A stretch of DNA of 54,363 nt from Bacteroidales bacterium (GTDB lineage Bacteria; Bacteroidota; Bacteroidia; Bacteroidales; UBA932). Location: NCBI GenBank assembly GCA_017471965.1, contig JAFURF010000021.1, positions 1 through 54,363 on the forward strand, read 5' to 3'. The position numbers and the translations under genes were made by a program. Below the pieces are notes generated by a model. That model worked only from the letters and a program-made list of their open reading frames with translations. It was not told the DNA's origin and made no database searches. This document shows, piece by piece, positions 6,118-49,082 of this stretch (position 1 is its first letter; the number at the start of each line of letters is the position of its first letter).

Positions 6118-6151
6118 ACAGTACGCCATACCGGTCGGTATGGCGTACTGT
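6118..6151. terminator. Bidirectional hairpin terminator
   Basis: A perfect 15-bp inverted repeat (6118-6132 and 6137-6151) with a GGTC loop sits between two convergent genes, the plus-strand gene ending at 6109 and ferritin ending at 6156. Its position and symmetry suit termination in both directions, although no long T-run follows on either side. Confidence 0.75.
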
Positions 6152-6721: not shown

Positions 6722-8044
6722 TTAAATGACGCGCTGTCCGTTCAGAAGCACCTGTTCGATGACAGGGGTCTGGTGGCTGTATGGGATGAAGGCGAGAGAC
6801 GGAACCGGTCTGGTGATGATCAGGTTGGCCTTCTTGCCGACTGTGACCGATCCCAGGATGTCGCTCACGCCCATGGCATATGCCGAGTTGATTGTGCAGG
6901 CGTTGAAAGACTGCTCCGGAGTCAGACGCATCCTGATACATCCCAGAGCCATCACGAACCTCATGTTTCCGCTCGGGCTCGATCCCGGGTTGTAATCAGA
7001 TGCGAGGGCTACCGGCAGGCCAGCCTCGATGTAGTCCTTTGCCCTGCCGTATGGGAGCCCGAGGAAGAATGAGCAGCCGGGCAGCATGGTCGGCATGGTC
7101 ACGCTTCCGCGCAGTGCCTCGATTTCAGCATCGGTGGTCTTTTCAAGGTGGTCGACTGAAAGCGCGTTGTGCTTTACGCCGACCTGTACTCCACCCGATA
7201 CTTCAAGTTCATTGGCGTGAATCTTAGGGGTGATGCCATATTTTGCAGCCTCGGTCAGTATCCGGTCTGTTTCTTCCACCGTGAAGAATCCTGTGTCGCA
7301 GAATACATCCACGAAGTCTGCAAGTTCCTCTTCCGCCACTCTCGGGAGCATCTCGTTACAGATAAGGTCCACATATTCGCTCTGTCGGCCTCTGTATGCA
7401 CGTCCTACAGCGTGAGCACCCAGGAAGTTGGCCTTGACGGTGACAGGAGATGTCTCCTTTATGCGTCTTATGACGCGGAGCATCTTCAGTTCATCTTCGA
7501 CTGTCAGTCCGTATCCGCTCTTGATCTCGACCGCTCCTGTACCCATGGCCATGATCTCATTCACTCTCTCCATGGACTGACGATAGAGTTCGTCCTCTGA
7601 AGTTTCGTGCAGAAGGTCGGCACTGTTGAGGATACCGCCGCCGCGGGCCGCAATCTCTTCGTAACTGAGACCGGCGATCTTGTCGCGGAATTCTCCGTCC
7701 CTGCATCCGGCATAGACGATATGGGTGTGACTGTCGCAGAAGGCAGGCATCACAAAGCCTCCCTTCGCATCTATGAACTCCACGTCAGCGGCATTATGGG
7801 ATTCCAAAACGACCCCTCCCACTTCGTGGGCCCCTCCCCCTGCGGCCAGGGGGGTAGCACGGTTTTGGAATCCCATAATGCCGCTGACTTCCATTTCACC
7901 GAACTCCGAGATGATCCCGTCTTCGATCACGAGATATGCATTCTCAATGCACTTCACCTGATTCATCTGCGACCCTTCCAGACGTCTGACGTCAGAGGGC
8001 AGGATTCCCGCCAGCGTACCTATATTGTAGATTATTTTCTTCAT
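6722..8044 (-). CDS. hutI: Imidazolonepropionase, carrying an in-frame palindromic insertion
   Basis: HutI hydrolyses 4-imidazolone-5-propanoate to N-formimino-glutamate, the third step of histidine degradation, in the cytoplasm. The amidohydrolase signature DSHTHIVYAG, the metal/substrate blocks HANELEVSGG and SVDHLE, and ASDYNPGSSPSGN are all present, so the enzyme looks catalytically intact. At 440 residues it is about 25-35 longer than typical HutI proteins. The excess is residues 53-87, encoded by a 105-bp GC-rich palindromic element (7784-7888) that keeps the frame. It lies in the variable small beta-domain just before the metal-binding strand, where family members differ in length. The start is 11 bp after the stop of a truncated DUF1016 gene. 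It is separated from ftcD-hutU-hutH by plus-strand accessory genes. Confidence 0.93.
   Translation of the reverse strand: MKKIIYNIGTLAGILPSDVRRLEGSQMNQVKCIENAYLVIEDGIISEFGEMEVSGIMGFQNRATPLAAGGGAHEVGGVVLESHNAADVEFIDAKGGFVMPAFCDSHTHIVYAGCRDGEFRDKIAGLSYEEIAARGGGILNSADLLHETSEDELYRQSMERVNEIMAMGTGAVEIKSGYGLTVEDELKMLRVIRRIKETSPVTVKANFLGAHAVGRAYRGRQSEYVDLICNEMLPRVAEEELADFVDVFCDTGFFTVEETDRILTEAAKYGITPKIHANELEVSGGVQVGVKHNALSVDHLEKTTDAEIEALRGSVTMPTMLPGCSFFLGLPYGRAKDYIEAGLPVALASDYNPGSSPSGNMRFVMALGCIRMRLTPEQSFNACTINSAYAMGVSDILGSVTVGKKANLIITRPVPSLAFIPYSHQTPVIEQVLLNGQRVI
7784..7888. repeat. GC-rich palindromic element, copy 1 (inside hutI)
   Basis: Two perfectly complementary 27-nt arms (7784-7810 and 7862-7888) enclose a 51-nt GC-rich core. 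The core contains its own small hairpins, CCCAC/GTGGG and CCCCTG/CAGGGG. About 29 nt of the core, around GGGCCCACGAAGTGGG on the minus strand, recurs almost unchanged at 10488-10517. Inner arm blocks TGGAAT and ATGC are also shared with that second copy, while the outer arm sequences differ. The total length is a multiple of three and contains no stop in the hutI frame. The repeat family is not recognised. Confidence 0.85.
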
Positions 8045-8055
8045 TATACGATTTC

Positions 8056-8742
8056 TTAATTATACGTTTTACGTATCACCTGCATCTTGCTGATAATCTT
8101 TCCTTCCAATCTGCTTTCTGAATATGCTGCCTCTGGTTTGAGACCGAGGAATTCAAGAGTAATCGGATTCTTGATGATGTCTGCCGGTTTCTCAATCACC
8201 TGGCCTTCTGTTGACAGGCGCATGACTTCACCTTTGTCCTTGCTGAGTGCAAGACGTTCGTAGAGACTGCTGTTCACCTGCCGCTGCAGCCAACGTACAT
8301 TCCAGTTCTGTTTTGCACATTCGATCTCATAGAAACTGCGGGCATTGGCATCTTTGATGCGCATGAGAACAAGGTAATGAGACCAGGAGAGAACGAATCG
8401 GTGAGGCTCATAGGTGGACGGTTGAATTTCGTAAACGCTGTTTACGGAATTCGAATAGGTTTGATAGAACTTTCTGGTTAATGTCAAAGTTTCGACTGAC
8501 CATCCCTTTCCATATTTCTCCGACAGTTTTTCGGAAAGTCGCTTCAGTACCTGCTTACCATATGCTGCTTTATAGTTCCCTTCCTGCTCATCTTCCACAA
8601 TATATCTGCCGACGCTGAACTTTGCGTAAACCTCGGAAAGATTGATTGCTGTCGATGCTCTTATTCTTGCTTCCTCAATTACAGAAGCAATCTTCTCAAA
8701 GAGAGCGTTGATGCTTGTTTCGGTGATCTCAGTTGTCTTCAT
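8056..8742 (-). pseudogene. Truncated DUF1016 (YhcG-like) nuclease gene
   Basis: A 228-residue product with the DUF1016 N-terminal region (SVGRYIVEDEQ, LSEKYGKGWS, LTRKFYQTY, LSWSHYLVLMRI, ARSFYEIECAKQNWNVRWLQRQ). It continues to NPITLEFLGLKPEAAYSESRLEGKIISK, the point where family members normally enter a C-terminal PD-(D/E)XK nuclease-like domain of about 130 residues. Here that domain is missing: the frame runs into a short tail, VIRKTYN, and stops. hutI begins 11 bp later. The remaining part may fold, but a nuclease is unlikely. DUF1016 genes are usually accessory, often near restriction or mobile loci, so this is probably the remnant of an insertion followed by a deletion. The start is ATG at 8742 (MKTTEIT). 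Confidence 0.8.
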
Positions 8743-8794
8743 TATCCTGCTTCTTGATGTTCTTATGCTCCTTTCACCAATTAAGTTCGGAAAA

Positions 8795-8802
8795 CAAAGA
8801 TA
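8795..8802 (-). promoter_or_regulatory. -7 box upstream of the DUF1016 remnant
   Basis: On the minus strand this reads TATCTTTG, an exact TAnnTTTG match about 50 bp upstream of the ATG at 8742. No -33 TTG is obvious. If active, it may now also drive hutI and ferritin. Confidence 0.45.
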
Positions 8803-8857
8803 CAATATCTTTTTATCACATATGACTCTTAAGAAATAATTTCTATATTTGCATATG

Positions 8858-9133
8858 CTTGACCGCTATATGTGTCGGATCGGGTAATTACATATTGATA
8901 AAGACGTTACTTGACGTTTATCTGCTGAACTCAAACTTCGCAACTTTGATATCAACAAGCAGATATGGCAACGTAAACGTCCACTTTGGTGTATATCCAT
9001 GCACCATGTTGTCTTACATGGGAGTATTGTATATTCATCTGACGTGGGCCTTCTGTTGCTTATCCTTGTTGATGGGCAATGCGAAGGCCCGAGTTCAGGA
9101 TGAGCAGGGTACAGACTCCCACGTCTTTTTTTT
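8858..9133 (+). ncRNA. Candidate structured RNA ending in an intrinsic terminator
   Basis: No convincing coding sequence lies here, but there are many nested stems. GACGTTTA (8913-8920) pairs with TAAACGTC (8974-8981), and directly inside it TCTGCT (8921-8926) pairs with AGCAGA (8958-8963). GGTGTA (8988-8993) can pair with TGCACC (9000-9005), and CCATGT (9004-9009) with ACATGG (9016-9021). GACGTGGG (9041-9048) pairs with CCCACGTC (9118-9125), followed by eight T residues. GGGCCTTC (9046-9053) pairs with GAAGGCCC (9083-9090), competing for three bases with the terminator stem. TATATTTG at 8844-8851 is a good -7 box, giving a start near 8858. It could be a free RNA or a leader/attenuator of the gene at 9188. 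I do not recognise it as SRP RNA, tmRNA, RNase P RNA or 6S RNA. Confidence 0.55.
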
Positions 9134-9187
9134 AGGTATAACTGCCGAATCTGCGAGTCTTGCGGCGTAAGCATTTCAACTTATAGT

Positions 9188-9712
9188 ATGACAAGAAAAC
9201 TATTTGCCGTTATGGTTATTCTTCTGGTATCCATGGTTACGATGCATGCACAGAAGTCGGAGGTTGTAAAGGTCGATTACATGGAGTCTTCATCCAGATA
9301 CCTTGAACCTACACAAAGTATTATGACGACACCTCTTATCGCGGATCTGTCAGTTACAGGCGGTCAGATTTCCTACACTGAAACCGAGGCGTTCAAGGAT
9401 TATGAAGTGACTGATGACCTGATCGAACTGGTCCCTAGCTTCAAGGCTGTTGCCCTCTGTCATGCGGCACGAGCACATAATGCTGATATGATAATCGGTG
9501 CGATGGTTGATGTCATCACCAATGACAAAGGTCGTCTTGAAATAACGATTACCGGCTACCCGGCGAAATATGTCAATTTCAGAAATGCTACAATGGATGA
9601 CATGAATCTGGTGCAGAGAGGTATGACCGTTGTTTTTGACTCATATGGGGAGGCCCTTGGAACACCGGAGGAACAGGTACAGATAACAGAAGAAAAAAAA
9701 GTTAAAAAATGA
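9188..9712 (+). CDS. Secreted protein of unknown function
   Basis: A 174-residue protein with a clear signal peptide (MTRKLFAVMVILLVSMVTMHAQ, cut probably after A20-Q). The mature part has no motif that I recognise. It contains a region rich in Ala/His (AVALCHAARAHNADMIIGAMVD), then beta-like strands RLEITITGYPAKYVNF, and ends in a charged tail, EEQVQITEEKKVKK. The ATG lies 54 bp after the T-run of the upstream structured RNA, which may control it. Its stop overlaps the start of the next gene by 4 bp (ATGA), so the two are translationally coupled and probably act together at the cell envelope. Confidence 0.75.
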   Translation: MTRKLFAVMVILLVSMVTMHAQKSEVVKVDYMESSSRYLEPTQSIMTTPLIADLSVTGGQISYTETEAFKDYEVTDDLIELVPSFKAVALCHAARAHNADMIIGAMVDVITNDKGRLEITITGYPAKYVNFRNATMDDMNLVQRGMTVVFDSYGEALGTPEEQVQITEEKKVKK

Positions 9713-10278
9713 AAAAGCTGTTATTTATATTGATGGCGGCACTGATTCCTGCCATCTCATTTGCCCAAAGAGGTATTCCGCGTTCTAACAATGTTAGCGT
9801 GAGTGTCAAGCGCGTAACCGAGACAACGGTTGAGAAAGATTACAAGACCTACAATGCCAGAGTCGGTTTTCAGCAGATGGCGGGAATAAATCTTGGAGCC
9901 TCATTTGAGTCAGGCCCTTTCATAGGGATTTCGTATGTGGGTGGATATAGATTCAATGACTGGTTATTTGTAGGCGGTGGAATCGAATATAATCCAGAAA
10001 TAGAAGATGGATTCGAAGATTTTAATCTTCCTGTATATGCCCAAGTCAGAACTTATTTTACCAAAAGGATATGGAGACCATATGTATCGTTATCGTTAGG
10101 AGGATGTGTTTGTCATAATTATTATGATTATGATTTTTCTGATGATGATTATTATTATGGTTTTTATGGAGATTTCTCCATTGGCGTAGATGCTCATGTA
10201 AGCGAAAAGTTCAATGTTTATATGGCCCTTGGCGTAAACAATATGGGTGTTCAATTAAAGGTAGGTCTTTCATTCTAG
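9709..10278 (+). CDS. Outer-membrane beta-barrel protein (small, OmpW/OmpA-like)
   Basis: A 189-residue protein with signal peptide MKKLLFILMAALIPAISFAQ. It is followed by alternating amphipathic strands such as AGINLGASFESGPFIGISYVGGY, DWLFVGGGIEYNP and WRPYVSLSLGGCV. A low-complexity Asp/Tyr loop (YDYDFSDDDYYYGFYGDFS) follows, and the final strand GVQLKVGLSF ends in Phe, the C-terminal signature recognised by BAM. It is predicted to be an eight-stranded-type barrel in the outer membrane. The start overlaps the stop of the upstream secreted protein gene by 4 bp. Base composition becomes noticeably more A/T-rich across the second half than in the flanking hut genes, which could mark an acquired segment. 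The specific function is unknown. Confidence 0.75.
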   Translation: MKKLLFILMAALIPAISFAQRGIPRSNNVSVSVKRVTETTVEKDYKTYNARVGFQQMAGINLGASFESGPFIGISYVGGYRFNDWLFVGGGIEYNPEIEDGFEDFNLPVYAQVRTYFTKRIWRPYVSLSLGGCVCHNYYDYDFSDDDYYYGFYGDFSIGVDAHVSEKFNVYMALGVNNMGVQLKVGLSF

Positions 10279-10290
10279 CTTTCCGCGAAG

Positions 10291-10398
10291 CGTCGGTACA
10301 TGAAATACAGGAAACTTGCACCGACGGTACTTCAAAGTACAGGATTTGCATCTAAATATGAAGTGTGGGTACATGAAAACCGAAATTCATGTACCCAC
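10291..10398. repeat. Cluster of three hairpins in the convergent gap
   Basis: CGTCGGT (10291-10297) pairs with ACCGACG (10320-10326). It is immediately followed by GTACTT/AAGTAC (10327-10340). A perfect 13-bp inverted repeat with an 8-nt loop then occupies 10365-10377 and 10386-10398 (arm GTGGGTACATGAA). They lie just after the stop of the barrel gene and contain no coding signal. They could be terminators or remnants of small palindromic elements. Confidence 0.6.
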
Positions 10399-10439
10399 GA
10401 TTGTCTTCATTTGCCTCCAAGTACAGTTTATTGCCAATA

Positions 10440-10544
10440 ATAAAAGGAAGCATTTGTATGGAAGTGACATTTTCGCACCCCCGCGTAGGGGGAGGGGCCC
10501 ACGAAGTGGGAGGGGGTCACTGGAATACAGATGCTTCCTTTTAT
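10440..10544. repeat. GC-rich palindromic element, copy 2 (intergenic)
   Basis: Arms of 29 nt (10440-10468 and 10516-10544) are complementary except for four positions. They enclose a 47-nt core with CCCCC/GGGGG runs and the sequence GGGCCCACGAAGTGGG that also forms the core of the element inside hutI. The inner arm carries TGGAAT and GATGC blocks in the same order as copy 1. It sits between the convergent barrel gene and hutH. Its total span, 105 bp, equals that of copy 1. Confidence 0.8.
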
Positions 10545-10575
10545 AGTGCTTGATCAAAAATGGTTGGTGACATTC

Positions 10576-10685
10576 AATCAAAAAATCGTCCGATTTTTTG
10601 ATTCTGATGTCTGTTTTGTGTGAAAAAAGTGGTTTTCTTTGATTTTTTTCATTTGGAATCAAAAAACAGGAGGTTTTTTTGATTC
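10576..10685. terminator. Two A/T-rich hairpins between convergent genes
   Basis: A perfect 13-bp inverted repeat (arm AATCAAAAAATCG, 10576-10588 and 10591-10603) has a 2-nt loop. A second hairpin at 10656-10685 uses GAATCAAAAAA against TTTTTTGATTC. Both arms give T-runs on either strand, so they could terminate hutH transcription on the minus strand and the barrel operon on the plus strand. Confidence 0.6.
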
Positions 10686-10716
10686 TAGTTGGGATATCAG
10701 TCCACCGATAATGAAA

Positions 10717-29935: not shown

Positions 29936-31435
29936 ATGAGAAAGTCGTTTCTTCTTGCCGTCATGGCAATACTTCCGTTTGCAATGCATGCGGAGGTCAG
30001 ACTTCCTTCCGTTCTCGGAAGCAACATGGTTCTTCAACGCAATACTGAGGTGAACCTCTGGGGAACCGCAGAAGCAGGAAAGACCGTTACCGTGGAGACT
30101 TCATGGAACGGTGCAAAATACAAGGTAAAGGCAGACTCTGAGGGAGCATGGCGCCTCAAGGTCGTTACCGGTGAGGCCGGAGGCCCATATACCATCACAT
30201 TCAGCGACGGCAGGAAGACCGTTCTGGACAACATCCTCCTCGGCGAGGTGTGGATCTGCGGCGGTCAGTCGAACATGGAGATGCCTGTATGCGGCTTCAT
30301 GTATCAGCCGGTGGAGGGCTCTTCCAAGGCTATTCTTTATTCTGCAACCGAGACACCGAATGTGAGGATGTTCACCGTCCCGCGCAAATCTGCCAAGGAA
30401 CCTCAAGTGGATTGTGGAGGAGAATGGATGGTCTCAAATCCTGAAGGCGTATGCTCGTTCTCTGCTGTGGGCTACTTTTTCGGAAAGGCTCTGACTCAGG
30501 CGCTTGGCGGTATTCCTGTCGGACTTATATCGGCAAACTGGGGCGGCAGCCGTATAGAGTGCTGGATGACGGAAGAGGCAATAGATGGTACCGAGGGCAT
30601 CAATCATGAGATTGCAAAGAACGGAAATGGAGAGACCAGCGCGCCGCAGATGCTTTATAATGGTCTCATACATCCTGTCAAGGATTTCACTGCGAAGGGA
30701 TTCATCTGGTATCAGGGATGTTCCAACAGACATAATTGGTTTGATTACAAGAACCTGATGGTTTCGCTTGTAAAGTTCTGGAGAGAGTCATGGGGTAACG
30801 CTGAAATGCCTTTCTACTATACGCAACTTGCACCATATACATATGAAGGAGACAATCTTCGCTCTCTTCCTCTTGTGATCGAGGCTCAGTATCAGGCTAT
30901 GGCAGAAATTCCGCATTCAGGAATCGCTGCTACTACTGATCTGGGCAACCGTACCTGTATTCATCCATCTGAGAAGATTCAGGTCGGAGAGCGTCTTGCA
31001 TATCTTGCATTGGCGAATGACTACGGCTTGAAGGGTATTCCTCGTCCAGCGCCTACATTCAAGGAAATGGAAGTCATCAAGGATGAAAGGAGAGGAAACA
31101 TGCTTGTCCTCAGTTTCAACAATCTGTCGAAGATATATGAGTGGAACGACCCTGACAGTTTTCAGGGATACCGGAAGGATGGTTACTGCACTCCGGCAGG
31201 ATTTGAGATTGCAGGTGAAGACAAAGTGTGGCATAAGGCCAAAGGAAACTACCGTTGGTGGGAAAACCGTATCGAGGTGTGGTCTGAGGATGTCCCGGAT
31301 CCTGTCGCTGTCCGTTATGCGTTCTGCAATTTCCCTGCGGATGCCAATGTCGTGACTACCATGGGACAGCCTATGCCTCCGTTCCGTACCGACAATTGGG
31401 AGATTCCTGCAGAAGAGATAGGAAAGATACAATAG
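29936..31435 (+). CDS. Sialate O-acetylesterase-type SGNH esterase (copy A)
   Basis: A 499-residue secreted protein (signal MRKSFLLAVMAILPFAMHA) of the sialate-O-acetylesterase/SASA type. Nucleophile S112 lies in CGGQSNMEMP. Other family blocks are NWGGSRIECWM, GFIWYQGCSN and the Asp/His block TDLGNRTCIHPSEK...GERLAYLALA. An N-terminal beta-domain (residues 20-105) precedes the esterase core. It would remove O-acetyl groups, on sialic acid or other sugars, that block glycosidases. ATG 29936 is used in place of the in-frame TTG at 29924. The first 120 codons are almost identical in DNA to the copy at 47604, although the rest has diverged. It is followed after 14 bp by a metzincin-like protease. 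Confidence 0.88.
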   Translation: MRKSFLLAVMAILPFAMHAEVRLPSVLGSNMVLQRNTEVNLWGTAEAGKTVTVETSWNGAKYKVKADSEGAWRLKVVTGEAGGPYTITFSDGRKTVLDNILLGEVWICGGQSNMEMPVCGFMYQPVEGSSKAILYSATETPNVRMFTVPRKSAKEPQVDCGGEWMVSNPEGVCSFSAVGYFFGKALTQALGGIPVGLISANWGGSRIECWMTEEAIDGTEGINHEIAKNGNGETSAPQMLYNGLIHPVKDFTAKGFIWYQGCSNRHNWFDYKNLMVSLVKFWRESWGNAEMPFYYTQLAPYTYEGDNLRSLPLVIEAQYQAMAEIPHSGIAATTDLGNRTCIHPSEKIQVGERLAYLALANDYGLKGIPRPAPTFKEMEVIKDERRGNMLVLSFNNLSKIYEWNDPDSFQGYRKDGYCTPAGFEIAGEDKVWHKAKGNYRWWENRIEVWSEDVPDPVAVRYAFCNFPADANVVTTMGQPMPPFRTDNWEIPAEEIGKIQ

Positions 31436-47603: not shown

Positions 47604-49082
47604 ATGAAACGAATCCTTCTTCTTGCCGTTATGGCAATTCTTCCGTTTGCAATGCATGCGGAGGTCAGACTTCCTTCCGTTCTCGGAAGCAACATGGTTC
47701 TTCAGCGCAACACTGAGGTGAACCTCTGGGGAACTGCAGATGCAGGAAAGACCGTTACCGTGGAGACTTCATGGAACGGTGCAAAATACAAGGTAAAGGC
47801 AGACTCTGAGGGAGCATGGAGCCTGAAGGTCGTTACCGGTGAGGCCGGCGGACCTTATACCATCACATTCAGCGACGGCAGGAAGACCGTTCTGGACAAC
47901 ATCCTCCTCGGTGAGGTATGGATCTGCGGCGGCCAGTCGAACATGGAGATGCCTGTATGCGGCTTCATGAACCAGCCTGTAGAGAACTGCGCGGAGTTCG
48001 TGATGAACGCAGGACAGTATCCGGGCATCAGAATGTTCACTGTGGCGAGAAACTCTACCAGTGAGCCTCAGACAGACTGCAAGGGCGAATGGCTCTGCTC
48101 GACTCCTGCTTCCGTGAGCACCTTCAGCGCCACTGCATATTTCTTCGGACTTACCCTCTACAAGATGCTCGGCGTTCCTGTAGGCCTCCTTACCTCGAAC
48201 TGGGGCGGCTCTACCATCGAGACATGGATGAGCAAGGAAGCCGTTGACGCCATCGAAGGCATCGACCACAAACTTATCAGCGAGTGGAAGGGCGAGGCAA
48301 GTGAGCCGGGTCTTCTCTACAACGGAATGATCCTTCCTATAAAGGACTATACTGCAAAGGGATTCATCTGGTATCAGGGCTGCTCTAACCGCAAGAACTG
48401 GTTTGACTACAAGGAACTTCAGAAGGGACTTATCAACCTCTGGAGAAAGGACTGGGGAAATGACAAGATGCCTTTCTACATCACTCAACTTGCTCCTTAC
48501 CGTTATGAGGGCGACAACCTGCGTTCTCTTCCTCTCGTGATCGAGGCTCAGTACCAGGCTGCTGCCGAATTGGAGAATGTCGCTGTGGCGGCAACTACCG
48601 ACCTCGGACATCCTACATGCATCCATCCTGCAAAGAAACTTCAGGTGGGTCAGCGTCTGGCATATCTTGCCCTTGCACGCGACTACAAGGTCGCAGGTGT
48701 TCCTAAGGCATGCCCTACCTACAAGTCCATGGAGAAGGACGGAAGCACTCTTATTCTTTCGTTCAACAATCTTTCAGAGCCGAATCATTTCAACGATCCG
48801 GATTCATTCGTAGGTTTCGGACCTGATACCACCCTCAGGATGGCAGGTTTCGAGATTGCCGGTGAGGACGGTGTCTTCCATCCTGCGACAGTGCGCATGA
48901 AATGGTGGCAGAACAAGATCATGGTAAGTTCGGAGCAGGTTCCTGAGCCGGTTGCAGTACGTTACGCATTCAAGAACTACTGCCCGGAAGCAAATGTAAG
49001 GACCAACTACGATCTTCCTCTCGCACCGTTCCGTACAGACAACTGGGAGATTCCAGCAGAAGAAATCGGAGAAATAAGATAA
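47604..49082 (+). CDS. Sialate O-acetylesterase-type SGNH esterase (copy B)
   Basis: A 492-residue secreted esterase (signal MKRILLLAVMAILPFAMHA). S112 in CGGQSNMEMP is the nucleophile. NWGGSTIETWM, GFIWYQGCSN and TDLGHPTCIHPAKK...GQRLAYLALA complete the site. Codons 6-122 match the copy at 29936 at about 96% of bases, including an 81-base identical stretch. The remainder is only about half identical in protein. The conserved part is the N-terminal beta-domain plus the nucleophile loop. It is placed between the GH110-like pair and another SGNH enzyme, so deacetylation seems needed before or after alpha-galactose removal. Confidence 0.88.
   Translation: MKRILLLAVMAILPFAMHAEVRLPSVLGSNMVLQRNTEVNLWGTADAGKTVTVETSWNGAKYKVKADSEGAWSLKVVTGEAGGPYTITFSDGRKTVLDNILLGEVWICGGQSNMEMPVCGFMNQPVENCAEFVMNAGQYPGIRMFTVARNSTSEPQTDCKGEWLCSTPASVSTFSATAYFFGLTLYKMLGVPVGLLTSNWGGSTIETWMSKEAVDAIEGIDHKLISEWKGEASEPGLLYNGMILPIKDYTAKGFIWYQGCSNRKNWFDYKELQKGLINLWRKDWGNDKMPFYITQLAPYRYEGDNLRSLPLVIEAQYQAAAELENVAVAATTDLGHPTCIHPAKKLQVGQRLAYLALARDYKVAGVPKACPTYKSMEKDGSTLILSFNNLSEPNHFNDPDSFVGFGPDTTLRMAGFEIAGEDGVFHPATVRMKWWQNKIMVSSEQVPEPVAVRYAFKNYCPEANVRTNYDLPLAPFRTDNWEIPAEEIGEIR

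Follow-up and report, generated by a model that had tools for sequence, protein, structure and literature searches.

Within a 54,363-nt stretch of DNA from a draft genome of a Bacteroidales bacterium (contig JAFURF010000021.1, hereafter the window), the imidazolonepropionase gene hutI contains a 105-bp palindrome of which only the core is a repeat. A core of about 50 nt recurs at many loci of related genomes, in a family wider than one gene that spans eight host genes and 23 of 25 chosen close genomes. The arms on either side of it are local, and a view of the 105 bp as one element with its own arms is unsupported. We propose that the core is a mobile, GC-rich unit of two hairpins that becomes fixed in tolerant loops of enzymes, and that template switching copies flanking sequence into the arms, maintains their pairing and inverts the core. 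We regard this reading as evenly poised between right and wrong, and weigh it below against the alternatives.

The palindrome (positions 7784-7888, Table 1) consists of perfect reverse-complement arms of 27 nt flanking a core of 51 nt, and makes up codons 53-87 of hutI, a minus-strand gene for a protein of 440 residues whose frame stays open across the palindrome with no stop. The protein is identified as imidazolonepropionase by the NCBIfam model TIGR01224 and matches the PDB entries 2bb0 (the best match, an imidazolonepropionase, over query residues 86-439) and 2oof. The block aligned with 2bb0 begins at residue 86, so that nearly the whole insert precedes it. Natural length variation is seen in this loop of HutI, and insert-free hutI genes exist in two relatives (G021 and G048; G and L numbers designate genomes and loci). 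The initial annotation had reported an element of this size and build in an uninterrupted gene and had assigned it to a length-variable part of the protein; both statements hold. An inverted-repeat scan of the window (perfect pairing, 16-nt seeds, loops of up to 150 nt) returned only this palindrome and one seed at 6118/6136. At any one spacing, 27 nt would match perfectly by accident with a probability of about 4^-27, so the pairing of the hutI arms is not due to chance. The RNA of positions 7760-7910 (minus strand) is predicted to fold with -81.9 kcal/mol (z -7.8).

We monitored the distribution of the core at several levels of relatedness. In the source draft genome (2.32 Mb, 85 contigs, 64% complete), CCCACTTCGTGGGCCCCT with at most two mismatches occurs at 20 places, as against none for the reversed control. 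These cores form subtypes, and the flanks outside the core are inverted repeats that differ at most loci; the exceptions with common flanks are L002/L003 and both copies in L009. A core match with at most one mismatch was found in 52 of 200 genomes of the genus. Across the order, 2 of 295 genomes matched, namely the source genome itself, which is counted in, and G524, from another genus of the same family. The 22 named stretches with the core that were found in the GTDB collection come from Bacteroidales genomes, and where a title states the source, it is the gut of sheep, goat, water buffalo or deer. A search with at most two mismatches for CTGCGGCCAGGGGGGTAGCACG, which ends the hutI core, was then made in 25 close genomes that were hand-picked, many for inserts already observed there, and are not a random sample; 23 of them gave a total of 87 matches, and the controls none. 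These matches became 85 loci, with G262:C21 and the miaA copy of the source genome (L011) left outside the set, and then 79 analysed copies after L266, L275, L290, L303, L316 and L327 were dropped because their flanks were too short or their stretch was identical to another. A GTAG follows the second hairpin (H2) on its 3' side in B-type cores, and the type-A cores inspected are without it.

The comparison of the core and of hutI with related genomes thus yields many DNA-level repeats as well as insert-free alleles, and the view of the hutI segment as an ancestral protein loop fails on both. The natural length variation of the loop would suit an ordinary variable loop with a chance palindrome, the other trivial explanation being an assembly artefact. 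Both were rejected, their probability being negligible in view of the perfect 27-nt arms, the 20 copies compared with 0 in controls, the presence of the core in 23 of 25 separate assemblies and the open frames.

Arms of at least 20 nt are present in 65 of the 79 copies. They are 21-32 nt long (median 26), and 31 of the 65 are perfect. The armed copies hold 63 distinct 20-nt arm sequences, and the arm bases adjoining the core are AC in 52 copies, AG in 12 and GG in one. The pairing score between right arm and left flank averaged 20.4 in true pairs and 3.7 when copies were swapped, a null that included orthologous copies (maximum 22). The initial annotation had likened the hutI element to Rickettsia palindromic elements (RPEs). 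This likeness survives in so far as a palindromic element is dispersed in frame in protein genes, and lacks support where it treats the 105 bp as one element with its own arms, as the number of distinct arms illustrates.

The copies in aroE point to a host origin of one arm. Their upstream (left) arm runs through the helix NSDYLGVRMWLSEVAEGLK (L-x-E). Among 22 aroE genes not classed as core-bearing, of which one (L224) holds a remnant, the L column contains L, V or I in 22/22 and the E column E or D in 19/22, with columns numbered from NSD without gaps. In the downstream arm the helix stretch is inverted and codes for unrelated residues, after which the conserved strand resumes. Judged from these alignments, one arm in aroE is the native helix and the other its inverted copy. 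The L224 remnant (aroE of G072) appears to be an in-frame element remnant, GGTCTGAAAAGCATGCTTCCACCT, as though most of the core had been deleted.

Element-free alleles can be set against carriers in aroE (L194 of the source genome vs L054; L226 of G145 vs L196 of G251) and in hutI (L257 of G048 vs L248 of G152), where 31 extra bases follow the inverted arm. Short direct repeats occur at these allele pairs: CCGG, a CAAAG-like repeat in aroE and, in G152 compared with G048, the 9-nt GAGACTGAA on both sides of the hutI insert. L054 differs in phase from the other ten aroE copies, and aroE was therefore probably hit more than once. In hutI, the DNA alignment to G021, G024 and G152 is too divergent to tell which arm of the window is native; the D-V-S-G of G048 facing E-V-S-G in the window's HutI is a weak hint for the gene-upstream arm.

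Host genes were assigned with the element masked, since unmasked labels are inflated by element-coded peptides (aroE 13, tilS 6). Within eight enzyme genes lie 62 of the 79 copies: hutI (13), a DapE/ArgE-like M20 peptidase (11), aroE (10), truB (8), lpxB (7), miaA (6), aroK (5) and tilS (2). The spanning frame is open in all 62, which follows from the selection of copies by an open spanning frame. Copies in these genes make up 55/56 of subtype B1 and 7/23 of subtype B2, to which all five aroK copies belong. One of the six frames of the window core contains TAG, and this frame is unused by all B1 copies in the eight genes. The phase between core and reading frame is invariant in seven of the eight genes. 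Both core orientations occur in five genes (hutI 9 and 4, aroE 5 and 5, truB 4 and 4, lpxB 6 and 1, M20 9 and 2).

The inserts are presumably translated. A very stable message hairpin and short direct repeats beside some copies would also suit a skipped insert, through ribosome bypass of the hairpin or excision from the mRNA, for which the mitochondrial bypass elements offer a model. Skipping, however, would not require frame keeping or stop avoidance, while all B1 copies but one lie in the open frame of an identified gene and none of these uses the TAG frame. With a search based on open frames, the informative count is that single exception, L332, and we consider skipping very improbable.

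The wider family also has copies in frame in murB (L017) and in shikimate kinase (L009, L013), with a related composite insert in a prmC-like gene (L065). In G152 the hutI loop holds a type-C core, and at the same loop in G024, G006 and G019 (L022, L026, L027) there are unrelated in-frame inserts of the GTCATTCTGAA... and GTCATTCCCGG... types; the miaA and tilS loops also host other inserts. Since different insert families occupy the same hutI, miaA and tilS loops, these loops are, as far as their occupants indicate, tolerant of insertion. Some loci are more complex. L009 and L010 (G000:C64:24809 and 25145) are two cores close to the end of a contig and separated by 336 bp; they share a frame with a partly repeated shikimate kinase segment. 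A further insert, of the GCTGCTCGCTGCAA... type, is nested within the cores of L013, L262, L269 and L328, and a similar segment occurs in the prmC-like gene of L065.

Recurrent site-specific insertion could yield much the same picture. A dedicated enzyme would put the core beside A(C/G) at the same few loops repeatedly, and each event would duplicate some 25 nt of one flank in inverted form (e.g., through a new 3' end that folds back or a hairpin end that is opened off-centre). The arms would differ as fresh copies of local DNA, orientation being free. The bases adjoining the core, the narrow range of arm lengths and the conserved right flank that resumes after the inverted arm in aroE all favour it, as do the 9-nt direct repeat around the G152 hutI insert and the signs of more than one insertion in aroE, where L054 differs in phase and the position in the loop varies. 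Independent events, however, would not be expected to produce a single phase per gene across 13, 11 and 10 species, and the direct repeats, being short, could have arisen as junctions of deletions. No associated recombinase was found either. A search for a mobiliser of the RAYT kind (the tyrosine transposases associated with repetitive extragenic palindromes, REPs) in the source genome, which is 64% complete and was the only genome examined, gave three Y1_Tnp matches, two of them over the cut-off, with no core motif in their loci. We regard recurrent insertion as unlikely, though as an explanation that carries real weight.

A search for carriage by plasmids or phages (blastn of the 105 bp, E 0.01) was negative for all of 72,556 plasmid and 50,697 phage records. 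Five IMG/VR contigs contain an 18-mer of the core; four of them (L105-L108) are without the rest of the core, look like chance matches and were rejected, and in the fifth, L109, the 18-mer is joined to another second part and flanked by arms of 10 nt, GAACCTACCT/AGGTAGGTTC.

The comparison of copies in the same gene of different genomes (184 pairs) suggests that the two arms change jointly: they differ at 11.0 of 24 positions between species, with a mismatch of 1.04 of 24 within a copy. In the 12 pairs with 4-6 arm differences, 51 changes are compensated, 12 are one-sided and 5 belong to neither class. The core may turn over as well. Between hutI of G315 and of G408 the core is inverted, and 5/5 arm differences are compensated. 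In aroK, the loop of the first hairpin reads AGAAT in L296, ATTCT (inverted) in L320 and GAATC in L308, and the arms of L296 and L320 are nearly identical. The opposite orientations found at one phase in five genes may result from inversion of the spacer in place, though independent insertion in the opposite orientation may also account for them.

These data bear on an RPE-like element with arms of its own, inserted once per gene, whose arms would drift by compensatory substitution under selection for RNA or DNA structure. Such an element would account for the dominance of compensated changes at larger distances, for arm sequence that the type-C copies of G524 have in common and for the very stable RNA fold. 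It does not predict core flips, it would need an unlikely common selection for perfect pairing across different coding genes, and it is at odds with nearly as many arm sequences as armed copies and with an aroE arm made of native codons. We therefore judge it improbable.

In the template-switching reading, the mobile unit would be the core of about 50 nt and not the 105-bp palindrome. Cores would have moved between loci and been inserted into tolerant enzyme loops, mostly before the compared species split and in some cases later, and the retained copies would be those that keep the frame. The strong hairpin could then act as a hot spot for template switching during DNA replication. A polymerase folding back or crossing strands at the core would copy 20-30 nt of one flank, reverse-complemented, to the other side and so make the arms; later re-copying of one arm from the other would keep them complementary during sequence drift, and the polymerase would sometimes return with the core inverted. 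We infer template switching as the agent from the joint arm changes, the core flips and the host origin of an arm, all of which it fits, and it leaves the movement of the core unexplained. The available text on template-switch (quasipalindrome) mutation describes homogenisation of arms and inversion of spacers between inverted repeats, coding DNA included (PMC8604942), and the creation of a perfect hairpin by one event (PMC8794818). There the process acts at existing or new inverted repeats, whereas here it would go with a GC-rich core that is itself repeated, and dozens of loci have one and the same architecture.

Several observations weigh against this proposal. The arms of at least 20 nt are missing from 14 of the 79 copies, and in a mixed-subtype set an ungapped stem of at least 20 nt is present in 36/69 copies, the others being shorter or interrupted. 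In G524, four type-C copies (L347-L350) have most of the left arm in common, ending TCCTGAAAAC, and three of them the right arm too where it is visible; arms can therefore be common property of copies in another genus. The narrow arm length is unexplained by template switching alone, and the search pattern itself selects for a conserved H2. Core edit distances of 8.06 within and 8.55 between genes (permutation 0.079) lend weak support to vertical descent, miaA uses two phases, and the position of the insert in the aroE loop shifts by several codons. Each element-free allele may be a deletion between direct repeats, so that the direction of change is not fixed and arms need not have been made at insertion. 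Among the 11 closest pairs (0-3 differences), 9 changes are compensated and 18 one-sided, and the M20 pair L280/L287 has 5 one-sided and 0 compensated changes; correction is therefore slow or not universal, and not immediate. Finally, a separate recent insertion in each species would also yield compensated differences.

RPEs are, by behaviour, the nearest known kind, and their defining conservation over the whole length is lacking here. As described in the available text, the palindromic elements of Rickettsia and Wolbachia are short palindromes in frame in many unrelated genes, with orthologs sharing the site and different RPE families sitting near each other within one gene (PMC10969869, PMC3767692). 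The copies within eight enzyme genes suggest the same habit of in-frame insertion. The RPE repeat, however, is conserved throughout its 100-150 bp or so, arms included, whereas here this holds for the core only, and the copies lie in more than one reading frame and in either orientation. Among other hairpin repeats are the double-hairpin elements of organelle genomes. Repetitive hairpin-forming elements of organelles spread, mostly between genes and in some cases within them, and the text consulted reports no locus-specific flanking arms or fixed in-frame enzyme sites (PMC2800124). Long perfect inverted repeats also occur in protein-coding genes of Nematomorpha mitochondria, where, in the accessible part of the report, both arms code for conserved protein and no repeated core is described (PMC6649704), unlike in aroE, where one arm is an added copy and the core is a repeat.

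REPs are likewise small palindromic repeats, with a GTAG or CGTC tag at the hairpin foot, which the GTAG of B-type cores, though not the type-A cores inspected, may recall. REPs are extragenic by name and those with GTAG are linked to RAYT genes, as far as the consulted text goes (PMC3733652), whereas B1 copies are nearly all intragenic. Miniature inverted-repeat transposable elements have terminal inverted repeats common to all copies, whereas here the outer arms are locus-specific in the genus, the mostly shared left arm of the G524 type-C copies standing apart. Their target-site duplications could be compared with GAGACTGAA around the G152 hutI insert and the CAAAG-like repeat in aroE, which could also be deletion junctions. 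No paper on this Bacteroidales family was found in a literature search that left subscription papers and preprints mostly outside.

A more far-reaching reading is that of a mobile element that lacks its own ends. On arrival, its 50-nt hairpin core would assemble terminal inverted repeats out of the gene that it enters and then keep them paired, so that coding loops in essential enzymes would steadily turn into palindromes; we offer this tentatively, as possible and rather doubtful. The available text describes palindromic elements within genes for Rickettsia and Wolbachia, their origin and persistence being left open (PMC10969869, PMC3767692). Bacteroidales are a second lineage with such elements. 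One genus alone offers more than 400 genomes, and with a choice of host genes, alleles free of the element and arms that record host sequence, the origin of the palindromes becomes directly testable, and likewise the origin of new protein segments via template switching. Compensatory changes here need not signal a functional RNA, which serves as a warning.

Table 1. Positions of hutI and of the two palindromes in the window
Feature	Position	Strand	Basis
hutI (imidazolonepropionase, 440 aa), with a frame uninterrupted by the element	6722..8044	-	open reading frame, PDB 2bb0, TIGR01224
Arm 1, 27 nt, locus-specific, perfect reverse complement of arm 2	7784..7810	.	inverted-repeat scan
Core, 51 nt, subtype B1: two GC-rich hairpins and GTAGCACG end	7811..7861	+	repeat searches
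Hairpin H1, CCCAC-TTC-GTGGG; sequence varies among copies, hairpin mostly kept	7818..7830	+	fold, copy comparison
Hairpin H2, CCCCC-TGCGGCCA-GGGGG	7836..7853	+	fold, copy comparison
Arm 2, 27 nt	7862..7888	.	inverted-repeat scan
Left arm of second copy, 29 nt, 86% complementary to 10516-10544	10440..10468	.	inverted-repeat scan
Core of second copy, 47 nt between arms	10469..10515	-	repeat searches
Right arm of second copy	10516..10544	.	inverted-repeat scan

The window contains a second, intergenic palindrome (10440-10544), whose core belongs to subtype A. The initial annotation had described a nearly identical core at this distance of 2.6 kb from the first, which is borne out by 32 nt that match the hutI core at 97% and does not extend to the arms, as these are unrelated in sequence. 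A search of window positions 7700-10700 against Rfam gave no match over threshold, the best one reaching 33.5 bits compared with a gathering threshold of 70; this sub-threshold match, to the lactis-plasmid RNA, covers 10434-10561 and spans the second palindrome. In both cores (7811-7861 and 10469-10515) the G-rich strand has four runs of at least three G (GGGGGAGGGG...GTGGGAGGGG), a possible G-quadruplex. Elsewhere in the window, a direct repeat of 300 nt links positions 29949-30248 and 47617-47916 with 96% identity, and more repeats of 71-73% follow in register downstream.
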